A stretch of DNA of 64,000 nt from Christensenellaceae bacterium (GTDB lineage: Bacteria; Bacillota; Clostridia; Christensenellales; Christensenellaceae), in the NCBI GenBank assembly GCA_022846035.1, contig AP025580.1, positions 2,418,001 through 2,482,000 of the forward strand. The letters run 5' to 3'. The notes under the pieces were generated by a model, which worked only from the letters and a program-made list of their open reading frames with translations, was not told the DNA's origin and searched no databases. A program made the position numbers and the translations under genes. Shown piece after piece: positions 4,762 through 11,050 of this stretch. The number at the start of each line of letters is the position of its first letter. The first letter of the stretch is position 1.

Positions 4762-5289
4762 TTAAGCTTCTTTTTGCTGTGCGATCGCGTTAAGCGCACA
4801 TACAAGTCCTCTCGGGATTGCCGCGAGCACGCCCACAAAGTTGGTAACCGGAGCGTTCATGCTGCCCAGCATTTTCGCGATGAGTTCTTCTTTCGACGGG
4901 AGCTTGGAGAGATTCGTGATCCCTGCCGCATCCATCACCTTGCCATCCAGTATACCGCCTTTGATCTCCGTTTTATTCGCGTCTTTTACGAATTTGCAAA
5001 GGATCTTTGCCGGAGCGACCGGATCTTCATAACCGAAAGCAACGGCGCTCGGGCCTTTGAAGTATTCGTCCACGCCCTCAATCTTGAGTTCATCCGCCGC
5101 GCGTTTAAGCATATTGTTTTTGATAACCTTATACTCTACGCCTGCCTGCCGGAACTGACTTCTCAGGTTCGTTACCTCTTCCACCGTGAGTCCGCGATAA
5201 TCGAGGACGATCATGCACTGCGCACGCTTCATTTTATCTACTACGTCCGCAACCGCCGCCTGCTTTGACTGTAATTTCGCTTCTTTCAA
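4762..5289 (-). CDS. rplJ: Ribosomal protein uL10
   Basis: 175 residues, typical length. The N-terminal domain binds 23S rRNA (MIVLDYRGLTVEEVTNLR region) and the C-terminal helix carries L12 dimers. L10, with L12, is also the known translational or transcriptional repressor of its own operon through the leader RNA, which is present just upstream. A promoter, leader and terminator precede the gene, and rplK/rplA are not next to it. Confidence 0.97.
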   Translation of the reverse strand: MKEAKLQSKQAAVADVVDKMKRAQCMIVLDYRGLTVEEVTNLRSQFRQAGVEYKVIKNNMLKRAADELKIEGVDEYFKGPSAVAFGYEDPVAPAKILCKFVKDANKTEIKGGILDGKVMDAAGITNLSKLPSKEELIAKMLGSMNAPVTNFVGVLAAIPRGLVCALNAIAQQKEA

Positions 5290-5321
5290 ACCGTTTCACC
5301 TCATTTTTGCGCCGGATTTAA

Positions 5322-5460
5322 ATAAAAAATGCTCTTATCAAAGCCATGAAGACCTTATAAGAGCACAACCAAGCATTCTTAGAAAATCAACCTCGTCAGG
5401 ATCTTACGGTTTAAGCTTACGCTCCTGAGTCTATGGCTTTTACGCATTATTCATTTTTAC
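5322..5460 (-). ncRNA. L10 leader RNA with transcription attenuator
   Basis: The 5' untranslated region of rplJ carries the structured elements expected of the Bacillota L10 leader: paired blocks around TCAGGAGCGTAAGC and CCGTAAGATCCTGA, followed by an intrinsic terminator whose stem TGCTCTTAT/ATAAGAGCA (5330-5338 with 5357-5365) runs into six T about 35 bp before the rplJ start. Binding of L10(L12)4 would favour termination. Family assignment comes from position and structure, not a covariance search. Confidence 0.8.
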
Positions 5461-6129: not shown

Positions 6130-6834
6130 TTACAGCAAAACAATGCCAATGATGAGGAGGCCCGTTGTGATCACTGGGAACAATCTGTCCGCCGGCCGCA
6201 GGACAAGCGGCCTATAGCATGTGCGTTTCGCCTGGTCGTCAAATCCCTGCGACTCCATTGCCGCCGCGAGCGCCTCCGACCAGCGCACCGCTTTGACCAT
6301 CAGCGGCGTCAGGAGCGAGGGCGAAATGGCCGCCGGATACAATCCCCGCGCGCGGAAAGCGGCTTTTGTTTTTTTGTATTCATGGCTGATATTCGGCAAT
6401 AGCTGGAAAGACGCCAGCAGTCCGTAGACGAACTTGACCGGCATATGCAGTTGCTGCTCTAACGAGCGCACCAGTTTCATGGTGTCCGTGGTGAACACGA
6501 ACAGCATGCCCAGGCTGCCGAACGCCAGCACCCTGCTCGCGAGCTGCAGGCCGTTTCCCACCGCGCCGCCGGAAATGAGCGACGCCGTCGCCGCGCCTAC
6601 GCCTATGTTGGAACCGTCGTGGAATTTGTAACCCGTCATATACATCCCCACCGAGAGGATAAGCACAGGGATCAGAACCTTGAGTACATTTTTCCAGTTA
6701 GCGCGCGACAAGGCGAGCGTTGCCATACACACCGCAACGACCGCGAAGTTCAGTACCGTATTGTATACGAAAGCAATGATGACGATAGGGATCAGGATCC
6801 CAATCAGTTTGTAAGCCGGATTGATCCCTTTCAT
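6130..6834 (-). CDS. ykoC: ECF transporter transmembrane subunit (EcfT/YkoC type)
   Basis: 234 residues with several membrane helices and the EcfT coupling regions: an AxxxRG motif as AAFRARG (about residue 155) and a second helix region KAVRWSEALAAAMESQGF. EcfT links the S component to the ATPases. The chosen ATG at 6834 overlaps the stop of the ATPase gene (ATGA); the same frame stays open further upstream, but that part only shadows the ATPase gene. It is the last gene of ykoE-thiY-like-ykoD-ykoC, under a TPP riboswitch, so the cargo should be thiamin or its pyrimidine HMP. Confidence 0.9.
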   Translation of the reverse strand: MKGINPAYKLIGILIPIVIIAFVYNTVLNFAVVAVCMATLALSRANWKNVLKVLIPVLILSVGMYMTGYKFHDGSNIGVGAATASLISGGAVGNGLQLASRVLAFGSLGMLFVFTTDTMKLVRSLEQQLHMPVKFVYGLLASFQLLPNISHEYKKTKAAFRARGLYPAAISPSLLTPLMVKAVRWSEALAAAMESQGFDDQAKRTCYRPLVLRPADRLFPVITTGLLIIGIVLL

Positions 6835-8285
6835 TGTATTTCCTCCCGCACAAGCTTTCCGTTTTGCAGCACATACATCTCGTCTGCATAGTCGTATCCA
6901 AGCTGCCTGTCGTGCGTGGAAAAAATGAGCGTCAGGCCTTTTTCCACACGCCTGTCCAAAAGCTCCATCACTGCGCGGATCGCGTTCAAATCCTGCGCGT
7001 ATGTCGGCTCGTCGCACACCAAAATTTCGCAGTCGTAAGCAAGCAGTGCCGCCACCGCCAGCCTGCGCTGCTGTCCCTGACTTAACATAAACGGCGATAA
7101 AAATCGGTACTTCCATAATCCGATCTCCTTGAGGACCGCTTTCACCTGCGCCTGCATTTCTTCCTCCACCACCCGTTTCTTCAGGCTGACGGCGATTTCG
7201 TCAAATACGCTGCTGGTAACAAACTGGTCCTGCGGATTCTGGAACACAAACCCCAGCTTATGACTGAGGGTTTTTTTGCGCAGCTTCTTTAATTCCTTCC
7301 CATGCAGCAACACGCTGCCCCGATAAGGGATTATACCGCACAGCACGGAAAAAAACGTACTCTTTCCACTGCCCGAAAGTCCGGTAATCGCATAAGCCTT
7401 TCCCTTTGCAAAGGCAGCGTCCAGTCCGTTTAATATGTTTTTTTCGCCGTAGCCGGCGCACAAACCCTGTATGCGCAGCACTTCTTCATTCCCGCGCCGT
7501 TCCCGCTTTTTTTGCTGCCGGTAATTTTGTCCGGGATAAACAATGCCCAGCCCCGCGAACTTTTCCCTGTGCCGGTCAAGATTGTCGCGCGTGATGTTAC
7601 GCTCCAAAAGCGCGCCGCCCTCTCCCAGCAGGACGATTTCGTCCAGTATGGGAAGCCAGTGCGCCACCTGATGGTCTACCGCCACAATGCCGACGCCGCT
7701 TTTTTTGTGCAGCTCTCCCAACTTTTGCACCAGCTCCTTGGTGGATGCGGGATCGATATTCGCAAACGGCTCGTCCAAAAGCAACCATTCAGGGCGCAAC
7801 AACGTTACGCACGCCAGCATTACCTTTTGCTTTTCCCCGCCCGAAAGCGTATAAAGAGCCTTTTTCCTGAGGTGCGAAATACCGCAAAAGTCGAGCGCCT
7901 CATCCATCCGGCGCCGCATGTCCGACGGGTCCTCTCCCTTATTTTCCAAGCAAAAAACCAGTTCGTTTTCCACGGTATCCATGCAAAACTGAAGATCCGG
8001 ATTCTGGAACATCATGCCAACAAGCGGCATACGCGCGGACGGATTCAATTCCCCCACCGCCTGGCCGTTTACGGTCACTGTGCCGCCGTCGACGACGCCC
8101 GCGTTTTGCGGGTATACGCCCGCCATCAGGTATAAAAGCGTGCTTTTCCCGCAGCCAGACGAACCACTGAGCACAGTAACGCGCCCCTGCTCGATGAAAA
8201 GGGACGCGTGACTGATAATCTCATATTTGCTTGTCTGCGAATACCGGAAAGTAAGATCGTTTATTTCAATACCGTTTTTAGTCAT
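6831..8285 (-). CDS. ykoD: ECF transporter double ATPase (YkoD type)
   Basis: 484 residues with two ABC domains fused in one chain. First half: Walker A GSSGCGKST, signature LSGGEKQ, Walker B LLLDEPFANIDP. Second half: Walker A GLSGSGKST, signature LSQGQQRR, Walker B ILVCDEPT. The second signature differs from the canonical LSGGQ. This fused form replaces the EcfA1/EcfA2 pair and is typical of YkoEDC thiamin-precursor transporters. The start overlaps the end of the substrate-binding-like gene by 8 bp. Confidence 0.94.
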   Translation of the reverse strand: MTKNGIEINDLTFRYSQTSKYEIISHASLFIEQGRVTVLSGSSGCGKSTLLYLMAGVYPQNAGVVDGGTVTVNGQAVGELNPSARMPLVGMMFQNPDLQFCMDTVENELVFCLENKGEDPSDMRRRMDEALDFCGISHLRKKALYTLSGGEKQKVMLACVTLLRPEWLLLDEPFANIDPASTKELVQKLGELHKKSGVGIVAVDHQVAHWLPILDEIVLLGEGGALLERNITRDNLDRHREKFAGLGIVYPGQNYRQQKKRERRGNEEVLRIQGLCAGYGEKNILNGLDAAFAKGKAYAITGLSGSGKSTFFSVLCGIIPYRGSVLLHGKELKKLRKKTLSHKLGFVFQNPQDQFVTSSVFDEIAVSLKKRVVEEEMQAQVKAVLKEIGLWKYRFLSPFMLSQGQQRRLAVAALLAYDCEILVCDEPTYAQDLNAIRAVMELLDRRVEKGLTLIFSTHDRQLGYDYADEMYVLQNGKLVREEIQ

Positions 8286-9177
8286 GAAATTCGTTCGTAA
8301 AACGCTCCCCGCTTGCCGCGTAGTCTGTTTGGATCATACCCTGTTCTTTCATAAAGGCGCTGAACGCTGTCCAACGCTGCGGACGGATCGTGCCCCAATG
8401 CCCCTGCTCGTTTAAATACAACCCCGCTATATATTCCTGACTCTCGATGAGAAGATCGAGGTCGAAGTGCGGCGTATAGCCGTGCAGAATCTTCGCCGCG
8501 GAGACCGGATCGTTCGCCGCGTCGATAAAGCCCTGATCGCTGGCCTTAATAAACGCGCGCACCGCCTGTGGATCGCTTTCGATCAACGCGTTTTTTGCCG
8601 CGACCGCCGGCGCGCAGAAATCCATGACGTCGTAAAAATCTGCCAGCGCGAAATAATCGCAGTCCTTGCCCGCGTGTTTCATCACGAACCATTCCCAGTT
8701 TTTATAGATCCATACCGCGTCGCCGTCGGCGCCCAATGTTTCCACAATATCCCCTACGTCCTTGGTTACCAGCCTTACCTTGGAATAATCGCCGCCGTCC
8801 TCATTCACCGCATAACCGATCACCGCATGAAACCACTGCGGCGTCCAGTGAGTGAGACGCTTTCCCATAAGCTCGCGCGGGCGCGTCGCGCCGCATGACT
8901 TGAGGGAAATAATTCCTGAATCGTTACGCTGCGTGAGTACCGCGATCGCCGTCGCCTGGTCCTCTTTTTTTGCTTCGTCCATATAAACGAGCATCGCCGG
9001 CTCGGGCGCGACCACAATATCCGGCTGCCCCGCGAACTGGTGGCCGCAGCCGCCGAATTCGCCGTTAATATGTACGTCGATACCCAAATCCCTGTAATAT
9101 CCTTTATTGAGGGCGACATAAAATCCCGTGTGGTTCGTGTTTGCAAACCAGTCCAGTTCTACATGCAATACTTTCAT
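8278..9177 (-). CDS. NMT1/THI5-like (ThiY-type) pyrimidine-binding protein without signal peptide
   Basis: 299 residues. The N-terminus LDWFANTNHTGFYVALNKGYY and the downstream GIDVHI block are the NMT1/THI5 fold signature seen in ThiY, which binds HMP or formylaminopyrimidine. The ORF begins directly at this first strand, with a strong GAGGAGG ribosome site, so there is no signal peptide or lipobox and the protein should stay in the cytoplasm. The Cys-rich CCCFC motif of fungal THI5 is absent. It lies between ykoE and ykoD under the TPP riboswitch. Its role, as intracellular pyrimidine binder, regulator or enzyme, is open. Confidence 0.85.
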   Translation of the reverse strand: MKVLHVELDWFANTNHTGFYVALNKGYYRDLGIDVHINGEFGGCGHQFAGQPDIVVAPEPAMLVYMDEAKKEDQATAIAVLTQRNDSGIISLKSCGATRPRELMGKRLTHWTPQWFHAVIGYAVNEDGGDYSKVRLVTKDVGDIVETLGADGDAVWIYKNWEWFVMKHAGKDCDYFALADFYDVMDFCAPAVAAKNALIESDPQAVRAFIKASDQGFIDAANDPVSAAKILHGYTPHFDLDLLIESQEYIAGLYLNEQGHWGTIRPQRWTAFSAFMKEQGMIQTDYAASGERFTNEFHD

Positions 9178-9189
9178 TCTGTCCTCCTC

Positions 9190-9804
9190 TCAATCGTCGT
9201 CCGCGATGTCCTGATGCACATACTTCGCGCCGATCGCATAGCCTTTCAATACGCCCGTGCGCGCGAGCCCTTTGCCCAAAAGCCAGCTCAGGACGCCCGC
9301 GAACAGCAGCGACGTTCCCAGCCGCACCGCGAACATTCCGATCAGCATCGGCACGGCGAGCGCCGCATATCCATTTGTAAAATAAGTCCAGACAAAGCTT
9401 AAAATACACGCAAACATTGCCGAAACGCACATGCTGGCAAGGTTGTATTTCTTGTATCCGAATACGGCAAACCCAAGCTCCAGGCCAACCCCCTGTACAA
9501 GTCCTGTCGTAATGACCAATGGGAAATTTCCCATCAGCAGTTCCAAAAACGCCGCCAGCACTTCCGTCACCAGCGCCACGCCCGGTTTTTGCAGGATGAA
9601 CGCCGCCAGCGTCGCTGCCATAAACCACACGCCGTACACGATCTCAAAATTAAACGGCGCAAGACCGAACGGCGTCAAGGCCACGCCGATCGCCTGACTC
9701 AAATAAAACGCGCCCAGATAGATCGCTGCGAAGATCAGGCCTAAAATACCGATCATGATGATGTCCTTTAATTGCCAGCCTTTTTTTACCTTTACCTGTC
9801 CCAT
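9190..9804 (-). CDS. ykoE: ECF transporter substrate-capture subunit YkoE
   Basis: 204 residues from the ATG preceded by GGAGGAGAG; an in-frame ATG at 9876 would add 24 residues but has no ribosome site. Five to six hydrophobic helices with conserved loops (GEVLxxFLELLMGN-like region, about residue 85-95, and a G-rich LVQGVGLELGF segment) match YkoE, the S component for thiamin-related hydroxymethylpyrimidine. It is first of the riboswitch-controlled operon and supplies substrate specificity to YkoD-YkoC. Confidence 0.9.
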   Translation of the reverse strand: MGQVKVKKGWQLKDIIMIGILGLIFAAIYLGAFYLSQAIGVALTPFGLAPFNFEIVYGVWFMAATLAAFILQKPGVALVTEVLAAFLELLMGNFPLVITTGLVQGVGLELGFAVFGYKKYNLASMCVSAMFACILSFVWTYFTNGYAALAVPMLIGMFAVRLGTSLLFAGVLSWLLGKGLARTGVLKGYAIGAKYVHQDIADDD

Positions 9805-9952: not shown

Positions 9953-9967
9953 CCAACTCAAAAAACG

Positions 9968-10060
9968 TGCTCCCTCCGCCAGTGTGAACTGGATCAGGTT
10001 CAACGGGTCTAGACATAAGTCTACTCTCAGCCGGCAATGCGCGACTCCCCTGACATTCCA
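9968..10060 (-). ncRNA. TPP riboswitch upstream of ykoE
   Basis: The minus strand shows the thi-box in order: GGGGAGT, CTGAGA, GACCCGTTGAACCTGATC, then CACTGGCGGAGGGAG. All conserved blocks for TPP binding are present. A terminator follows, so control is by transcription termination. It governs ykoE, the ThiY-like gene, ykoD and ykoC. Confidence 0.95.
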
Positions 10061-10078
10061 TATTTAATTTCTTTTTTC

Positions 10079-10179: not shown

Positions 10180-10199
10180 GACCTCATAAAATTTCATTC

Positions 10200-10270
10200 A
10201 CTGCTGGGGGAGCTTCGGCTGAGAATTAAACCCTTACAACCAGCACGGTAATACGTGCCAGGGAAGCGTC
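10200..10270 (+). ncRNA. TPP riboswitch (variant) upstream of thiT
   Basis: GGGGGAGC, GGCTGAGA, AACCCTTACAACC and a closing CCAGGGAAG follow the thi-box order. The P4/P5 part is shortened: the usual CCTGATCTGG block is replaced by a small stem GCACG/CGTGC around GTAATA. Position before a thiamin transporter and the terminator just downstream support the assignment, but ligand affinity may differ from the standard aptamer. Confidence 0.75.
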
Positions 10271-10286
10271 TGTGCGTTGCTGTTCA

Positions 10287-10360: not shown

Positions 10361-11050
10361 ATGTTTGATCAATTTTCACAACTGAATCTGCCCGCGCTCA
10401 TTATTGTATGCATCGCGATCGCCGCAGGGCTGGCCGGTTATTTTTTGTACCGCTCCCACACCAACGGCGGCCGTGAAGTCACAAAAAAATCGCAATGGAC
10501 GACCAAGGAGATCACCACGGCGGCATTATGCATCGCCGCTTCGTTCCTGCTAAGCTTTATCCGGATTTTCTCCATGCCCAACGGCGGTTCCATTACCCCT
10601 GCCAGCATGCTGCCGATGATGGCGTTTTCTTATGTCTACGGCTTTAAAAAAGGATTTATCGCCGGATTGTGCTACTCTTTGCTGCAATTTATCCAGGAGC
10701 CCTTTGCGCTTGCGCCGATGCAGGTGATTCTCGATTACCCGCTTTCGTTCTCGCTGCTCGCGCTGGCCGCATTCGCCAAAAAGAGTATTGTTTCCGGCAT
10801 TGCATACGGCTGCGCCGCGCGTTTTATCTGCCAGTTTCTTTCGGGCTGGATTTTCTTCGGTATGTATGCTCCGGAAGGCATGCCCGCCTGGCTTTATTCC
10901 CTGGGCTATAACGGAACCGTCGTCGGGCTCGAGTGCGCGATCTGCATCGCCGTTTCCCTGATTCCTGCTCTCCATAAGTTCCTGAATCGCACCAGGGCGC
11001 AGGCCCGCACGCAGCAAAAGGCTTTTATAAAAGCGCGCGCCGCAAACTGA
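10361..11050 (+). CDS. thiT: Thiamin ECF transporter S component ThiT
   Basis: 229 residues. An extra N-terminal membrane helix (about 12-31) and linker precede the six-helix ThiT body. Recognisable blocks are SMPNGGSITPASMLPM, YGFKKGFIAGLCYSLLQ, the QEPFALAPMQVILDYPLSF loop that supplies thiamin contacts, and the late YNGTVVGLE helix. ThiT uses the general EcfA-EcfA'-EcfT module, which is not in this window, unlike the dedicated YkoEDC opposite it. RBS AAGGAG lies eight bases before the ATG. Confidence 0.94.
   Translation: MFDQFSQLNLPALIIVCIAIAAGLAGYFLYRSHTNGGREVTKKSQWTTKEITTAALCIAASFLLSFIRIFSMPNGGSITPASMLPMMAFSYVYGFKKGFIAGLCYSLLQFIQEPFALAPMQVILDYPLSFSLLALAAFAKKSIVSGIAYGCAARFICQFLSGWIFFGMYAPEGMPAWLYSLGYNGTVVGLECAICIAVSLIPALHKFLNRTRAQARTQQKAFIKARAAN

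Follow-up and report, generated by a model that had tools for sequence, protein, structure and literature searches.

In this study, a gene for a protein of the NMT1 fold was analyzed that lies inside a ykoEDC operon of a Christensenellaceae bacterium. The window, i.e., the whole stretch of DNA examined, comprises 64,000 nucleotides (assembly GCA_022846035.1, contig AP025580.1, positions 2,418,001 to 2,482,000, forward strand). Binding proteins of this kind normally act outside the membrane, and importers of the energy-coupling factor (ECF) type are considered to do without them. On the minus strand the operon is read in the order thiamine pyrophosphate (TPP) riboswitch, ykoE, NMT1 gene, ykoD, ykoC (Table 1), as a preliminary description of this DNA had stated. 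Eight bases at the start of ykoD also belong to the end of the NMT1 gene, and the latter has its own stop codon ahead of ykoD. Comparison with homologs suggests that the true start of ykoE is the ATG at 9804. The protein matched the full Pfam NMT1 profile (PF09084; E 5e-38; 131.5 bits against a cut-off of 20.5; residues 13-227), and no other domain was found in it by the profile scan. The riboswitch call rests on the Rfam match, since the 185-base 5′ leader that includes it folded no better than its shuffles (z 0.03).

Table 1. Features of the ykoE-nmt1-ykoD-ykoC operon and its divergent neighbor in the window.
Feature	Position	Strand	Basis
ykoC, ECF T component, PF02361	6130-6837	-	profile match
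ykoD, double ATPase	6831-8285	-	open reading frame (ORF) list, profile match
NMT1-fold protein gene, leaderless, 299 amino acids (aa)	8278-9177	-	ATG at 9177; ORF list, Pfam, homolog comparison
GGAGGA ribosome-binding site of the NMT1 gene	9182-9187	-	read in the sequence
ykoE, ECF S component, PF09819	9190-9876	-	profile match; closest solved structure 5edl (YkoE), E 6.6e-33
TPP riboswitch ahead of the operon	9953-10061	-	RF00059, 60.4 bits
Second, divergent TPP riboswitch-like element ahead of thiT	10196-10281	+	35.6 bits, below Rfam's 54.3
thiT (Thia_YuaJ), group II thiamine S component, divergent neighbor	10361-11050	+	TIGR02357, 119 bits, cut-off 108.45

The protein begins at the first strand of the NMT1 fold, with MKVLHVEL alone preceding a D-W motif, and the GGAGGA sequence is located four bases ahead of its ATG; both the early start and the strong ribosome site had been pointed out in the preliminary description. 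The in-frame TGA of ykoE (9192-9190) stands four codons upstream of this ATG, so that a longer start is impossible without read-through of a stop. The entire open frame of the gene amounts to 303 codons.

The gene was carried by four of five other members of the genus and by one of 12 other members of the family among the nearest genomes. A six-row family alignment was used to search 398 genomes of the phylum, with loci taken from the best 30 places; 95 genomes matched at an E-value of 1e-20, and only the own genome (624.6 bits) and one other (G267, 447.8 bits) exceeded 230 bits. Named carriers were found in one collection by the exact peptides DWFANTN and VWIYKNW, a scan that misses members with neither. 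It matched 63 stretches, seven of which encoded a relative: Christensenella intestinihominis, Christensenella sp. Marseille-P2438, the metagenome-assembled genome (MAG) Christensenella sp. UBA5399, two Peptococcaceae MAGs, Flavonifractor plautii and Neobittarella massiliensis. Several of these named loci are the same records as genomes designated here by G numbers, and ten distinct proteins remain, that of the window included. The preliminary description had proposed a search for the same gene order in other genomes, and ykoE-nmt1-ykoD was indeed found in all nine further distinct loci (Christensenellaceae, Oscillospiraceae, Peptococcaceae); L108 duplicates the record L030 and was not counted as a tenth. 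In five of the nine ykoC comes next, and the other four stretches stop before or soon after ykoD. All seven named loci have a TPP riboswitch in front of the operon (five at the Rfam threshold, two below it) and an NMT1 gene that ends with its own stop codon ahead of ykoD. Ratios of non-synonymous to synonymous change (dN/dS) were 0.05-0.13 in nine of ten Christensenella pairs and saturated in the tenth; these values are rough, several pairs being close to saturation at synonymous sites. The leaderless gene is under purifying selection. A literature search by titles and the beginnings of abstracts returned no account of an NMT1 protein that lacks a leader and is encoded in a ykoEDC operon; subscription papers lay mostly outside it, so this is not proof that none has been published.

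For comparison, a set of 31 exported relatives was assembled from three proteins of the nearest-genome search and the 28 best-scoring of 93 other matching genomes (those with a match other than the own genome, G000, and G267). All 31 entered the leader and context tests, and 29 entered the residue table and the tree. Leaders were assessed by motif spacing, by hydropathy over 15 residues and by a simple pattern for a lipobox-like Cys. Eight residues precede the D-W motif in every one of the ten leaderless proteins, compared with 31-79 in the exported relatives. The best 15-residue hydropathy within the first 60 residues was 0.27-0.81 in the former and 1.80-3.31 in the latter, the two ranges being disjoint, and a lipobox-like Cys was seen in 0/10 and 28/31, respectively. 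Upstream of the aligned start the frame remains open for 1-24 codons in the seven named loci. Two loci (L031 and L034) have other possible upstream ATGs, none of them with a hydrophobic stretch as judged by eye. The prediction that the protein encoded at 8278-9177 is cytoplasmic, which the preliminary description had also made, is thus well supported by the missing leader. A signal peptide in homologs had been named there as the finding that would speak against it; such leaders occur in exported cousins from other operons only. It is scarcely credible that the protein nevertheless reaches the outside and acts there as a binding protein of YkoE or another importer. All 31 relatives compared from outside the operon do have an N-terminal leader, as that explanation would expect, but the ten operon-linked proteins have none and little or no upstream frame to hold one, and in the window the ORF list and profile scan showed no classical permease among the four genes of the operon.

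The nearest relative of known structure is 4nmy, a thiamin-bound substrate-binding protein from Clostridium difficile (E 4e-43), with ThiY (3ix1; E 6e-15) and THI5 (E 4e-5) at greater distance. An AlphaFold2 model (mean predicted local distance difference test score, pLDDT, 84.1; predicted template modeling score, pTM, 0.86; pLDDT of residues 40-47 under 50) also matched 4nmy best (Z 32.5, root-mean-square deviation 3.0, 296 residues aligned, 28% identity), followed by ThiY (Z 30.0) and THI5 entries (Z 24.6-28.7). A shared fold by itself shows no function. Homology to 4nmy and its lipoprotein family extends over the whole length, with LDW..NTNHTG, W.Y..W and TNEF motifs in common. The two groups differ in their settings: the 31 family members compared have leaders and, nearly all of them, a classical permease and its ATPase nearby, whereas the leaderless protein lies in the slot between ykoE and ykoD. 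The protein had first been described as ThiY-like; the homology holds, but ThiY is not the nearest relative, 4nmy being ahead by both sequence and fold. ThiY binds formylaminopyrimidine; it is exported and works with ThiX and ThiZ (PMC5627462).

In a tree of the ten leaderless proteins, 29 exported ones and one ThiY-like protein, the leaderless proteins formed a single clade (100/100), the stem of which is long (1.52 changes per column). This clade grouped with 10 of the 29 exported proteins at 100/100 and thus falls within the 4nmy family; with one long-branched ThiY-like protein as the sole outgroup, the root of the tree is not firm. The exported relatives are found beside a classical permease in 30 of 31 cases, beside its ATPase in 30 and beside ykoE in none. 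The YkoE proteins of all ten NMT1-carrying operons likewise formed one clade (100/100), apart from 20 other YkoEs that were taken from genomes without the NMT1 gene (in one of these loci, L111, the downstream neighbor is off the contig). Since each of the two proteins forms one clade, the pair seems to have traveled together. The placement of L032 differed, with Peptococcaceae in the NMT1 tree and with Christensenella in the YkoE tree. The export state, conservation and origin of the leaderless protein are well supported. It would have a single origin, in the binding protein of a classical thiamine-type ATP-binding cassette (ABC) importer that was deprived of its leader and moved into a ykoEDC operon, and would then have diverged fast. 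A second NMT1-family protein, with a lipoprotein-like start and 94.1 bits, is encoded elsewhere in the own genome (L002, C1:24756-25370).

The leaderless proteins differ from the 4nmy family in the presumed pocket loops. Compared with the 29 exported proteins, Pro12Ala, Gly55Val (Gly in 25/29) and Tyr108Leu are changed in all ten. Asn13 and His16 are kept in all or nearly all members of both sets, as are Trp10, Trp111, Trp156 and Trp161, while His110, Trp115, His117, Asn160 and Glu162 are invariant in the ten leaderless proteins and absent or rare in the exported ones. Many of the changed positions fall at strand ends, in loops or at helix starts of the modeled secondary structure, and probably lie near the ligand-binding places of such folds.

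The fold is reused by enzymes that act in the cytosol, as THI5 does, and MqnD (Z 20.1), DszB (Z 18.7), MqnA and THI5 were all in the fold list. An enzyme acting on a thiamine vitamer, for example one that repairs thiamine or releases it from a modified form, would fit this reuse. All ten proteins share residues that could be catalytic and that the exported family lacks or rarely has (His110, Trp115, His117, Cys188, Asp86, Glu162), and in the pairwise alignment Cys188 is opposite the last Cys of the CCCFC stretch of THI5. However, the hydroxymethylpyrimidine phosphate (HMP-P) synthase THI5 (4esx, 4h67, 4h6d, 4esw, 4h65) shares the fold at 18% identity, and its Lys62 and His66, the pyridoxal phosphate residue and the substrate residue (H66 appears in the title of 4esw), face Pro60 and Val64 in the pairwise alignment, and no invariant Lys or His was found at or beside those positions in the leaderless proteins. 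In addition, products of the hydroxymethylpyrimidine (HMP) branch would be useless without ThiD and ThiE, and the four genes of the operon in the window include no further recognised enzyme gene. An enzymatic role is unlikely. A THI5-like HMP-P synthase in particular was rejected, as counterparts of Lys62 and His66 are missing and the own genome is without ThiD and ThiE; the alignment with THI5 had been suggested at the outset.

The thiamine pathway was surveyed in the ten carriers (G000-G004, G009, G267, G459, G460, G461). The own genome (one contig, 99.76% complete) gave no match to ThiC, TenA, TMP-TENI (ThiE) or Phos_pyr_kin (ThiD). Its sole match to PF02110 (ThiM) reached 27.2 bits against a cut-off of 27 and lies inside an NAD(P)H-hydrate dehydratase. 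A thiamine pyrophosphokinase was found in all ten carriers, this genome included. Full-strength ThiC, ThiD and ThiE were detected in one carrier only, G001. TenA had no match in any of the 12 genomes searched, the ten carriers among them (G458 is apparently the same as G267), and HMP salvage via TenA was rejected for this reason. Phos_pyr_kin (PF08543) matches above the cut-off were found in nine carriers, G000 being the only one without. That of G001 (307 bits) has true ThiD strength. In the other eight, the best match is a pyridoxamine kinase (G267, G459, G460, G461) or ribokinase-like (G002, G003, G004, G009), and none exceeded 66.5 of the 205 bits required by the HMP-P kinase model TIGR00097, although six were scored as matched fragments, which lowers scores, and the naming covered the best match in each genome. 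A ThiE-like match in G461 scored 33.6 bits against the Pfam cut-off of 27, but 28.3 of 145.1 bits against TIGR00693, so that this carrier probably, though not certainly, lacks ThiE; TMP-TENI matches in G004 and G267 (19-20 bits) were below the cut-off. Single absences in draft carriers are weak (G009 is 91% complete). ThiC, ThiD and ThiE all occur in G005, another member of the genus, where the NMT1 gene had no match.

We know of no route from HMP to thiamine without ThiD and ThiE. In most carriers, therefore, HMP cannot feed thiamine synthesis by a known route while thiamine itself can, and judging from gene content imported thiamine seems to be the carriers' sole source of TPP. The HMP-branch ligand of ThiY would have no known use in nine of ten carriers. 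These observations bear on the preliminary suggestion of a soluble HMP-binding partner acting as carrier, regulator or salvage enzyme. A soluble carrier or regulator is still plausible; an HMP ligand and an HMP salvage enzyme are disfavored by the lack of ThiD, ThiE and TenA, by the thiamine-type relatives, and by the binding of thiamine to Bacillus subtilis YkoE reported in PMC5037267.

According to that paper, the affinity of B. subtilis YkoE for thiamine corresponds to a Kd of about 4.5 nM, and the vitamin is held by Tyr46, Trp49, Glu77, Gln95 and Asp131, with Glu77 and Gln95 (together with Trp49) contacting the pyrimidine side and Asp131 and Tyr46 the thiazole (PMC5037267). With numbering transferred from an alignment with that protein, Tyr46, Trp49, Glu77 and Gln95 are kept in all ten partner YkoEs. 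Most of the thiamine site thus appears to be kept, with one thiazole contact, Asp131, changed. YkoE and its operon have also been called an HMP transporter, both in PMC5627462 and in the title of 5edl. A partner for the salvage of HMP or formylaminopyrimidine could appeal to this name, to the remote homology with ThiY (3ix1, E 6e-15), to the retention by the partner YkoEs of the pyrimidine-side residues but not of the thiazole-side Asp131, and to carrier G001 with its ThiC, ThiD and ThiE. Nevertheless, the closest relatives are thiamine-type, and nine of ten carriers are without strong ThiC, ThiD and ThiE and all ten without TenA, so HMP salvage is an unlikely role for the NMT1 protein, and we give such a partner very little credence.

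The NMT1 gene is absent from most of the ykoE loci considered. Counting those 22 of 30 PF09819 loci from the phylum sample that the YkoE of the window matched by tblastn, ykoD was found behind ykoE in 21 (in the other the contig ends), and an NMT1 gene between the two in only two, those of the own genome and G267. The loci that were dropped (L124-L131) contained no NMT1 match either. One of them, L125, encodes a YkoE-family S component with a C-terminal Oxidored_molyb domain (PF00174; positions 1348-2529; 34.1 bits, cut-off 24). L129 and L130 hold ORFs similar to it by eye, and other PF09819 ORFs of about 345-500 aa may resemble it.

A soluble partner of YkoEDC is not without precedent. YkoF has no leader, and its domain (PF07615) is unrelated to the NMT1 fold. 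In PMC5037267, YkoF of B. subtilis is described as a soluble thiamine-binding protein of unclear function, encoded with ykoEDC under a TPP riboswitch; the NMT1 protein, soluble judging by its sequence, is encoded in a like setting. No Ykof domain was found in 11 genomes, 10 of which are carriers. In G455 and G229, two other genomes, ykoE follows a two-domain Ykof gene, whereas the NMT1 gene lies between ykoE and ykoD. Since the NMT1 gene is found in some operons and Ykof in others, recruitment of a cytosolic binding protein seems to have happened on at least two occasions, from different folds. Single-domain Ykof genes were also observed within about 2 kb of a thiamine-type exported NMT1 gene in four genomes (G103, G171, G214 and G334), which suggests that cytosolic thiamine-binding partners also accompany classical ABC importers.

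The NMT1 protein might instead be a plain acceptor or chaperone, which would trap thiamine in the cytosol, pull transport forward, and hand the vitamin to the pyrophosphokinase or keep it bound and protected, with no regulation involved; such a role is conceivable for YkoF as well. The thiamine binding reported for YkoF (PMC5037267), the retention of Trp10, Trp111, Trp156 and Trp161 by all leaderless and nearly all exported proteins, and the thiamine auxotrophy inferred for most carriers all agree with such a role. On the other hand, the pocket loops are altered to a greater extent than mere retention of a thiamine trap would call for, and no pyrophosphokinase gene was recognised within the operon of the window. 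We consider a plain acceptor rather doubtful.

Another precedent is given by the regulatory domains of CmpC and NrtC, which in the fold search scored Z 21.0-21.9, among many binding proteins at 20-23. In these proteins (9uak, 9uai, 9u9z, 8wm7), a binding-protein fold is placed on the cytosolic side of an importer, as it would be here judging from the model and the missing leader; there it is fused to the ATPase of a classical bicarbonate or nitrate importer, whereas the NMT1 protein is separate and its importer is of the ECF type. PMC6603209 and PMC11349869 present the cytoplasmic domains of NrtC and CmpC as regulatory. By analogy, the NMT1 protein might regulate its importer.

Taken together, the evidence is consistent with a protein that binds thiamine or a vitamer derived from it in the cytosol, is accessory to YkoEDC, arose once from an exported ancestor and possibly gates the importer; we put the chances of this account at about even. 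The ligand class we infer from the relatives, from YkoE and from pathway content. The protein would take the place that YkoF, an unrelated soluble protein binding thiamine and HMP, has in the B. subtilis operon and would bind the vitamer arriving in the cytosol, either thiamine or its product TPP. It may then signal its filling state to the ATPase YkoD, whose gene overlaps its own; here we infer both the contact with YkoD and the direction of control. Such gating would resemble that by the ATPase-fused CmpC/NrtC domain, but would be exerted by a free protein on an ECF transporter. That a stand-alone intracellular vitamin sensor gates an ECF importer post-translationally in this way, sensing cytosolic thiamine or TPP and adjusting YkoD in parallel to CmpC/NrtC, is a tentative proposal, possible rather than probable. 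Still, we favor a vitamer-sensing partner acting on YkoD, with the plain acceptor next and the enzyme third.

Several observations weigh against this preferred role as a thiamine-binding partner. Residues that never or hardly vary in the exported family have been exchanged in all ten leaderless proteins (for example Tyr/Phe58Pro, Thr86Asp with Thr in 27/29, Glu116Phe, Tyr188Cys, Thr/Ser189Ala). With these pocket-loop residues replaced, the ligand may have changed, for example to phosphorylated thiamine, or may not be thiamine at all. In YkoE, Asp131 is Thr, Gly or Glu in all ten partner proteins, compared with Asp in 12 of the 20 others. The carrier G001 has ThiC, ThiD and ThiE. Because thiT is also present in the window, plain thiamine might enter the cell without YkoEDC. 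In the majority of the YkoE loci inspected, both an NMT1 gene and YkoF are missing, so that such a partner is not needed for transport generally, and the separation of the NMT1 gene from YkoF rests on very few operons. Finally, the CmpC/NrtC domains form one chain with the ATPase, unlike the NMT1 protein in the loci read.

One lineage of anaerobic Firmicutes, gut bacteria among them, thus keeps in its cytosol, within an ECF thiamine operon, the kind of binding protein that is otherwise exported. It offers a second natural case, beside YkoF, in which the role of a soluble cytosolic partner of YkoEDC can be asked about, as well as an unfused counterpart of the CmpC/NrtC regulatory domain. If the protein is indeed a sensor, an ECF transporter would be subject to feedback control beyond the riboswitch. 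In the same region of the window, the riboswitch-like element of thiT and the riboswitch of the ykoE operon stand back to back. A ribosomal protein L10 leader (RF00557, 50.1 bits) was detected at 5316-5454 on the minus strand, ahead of an ORF (4762-5289) that reads like ribosomal protein L10.

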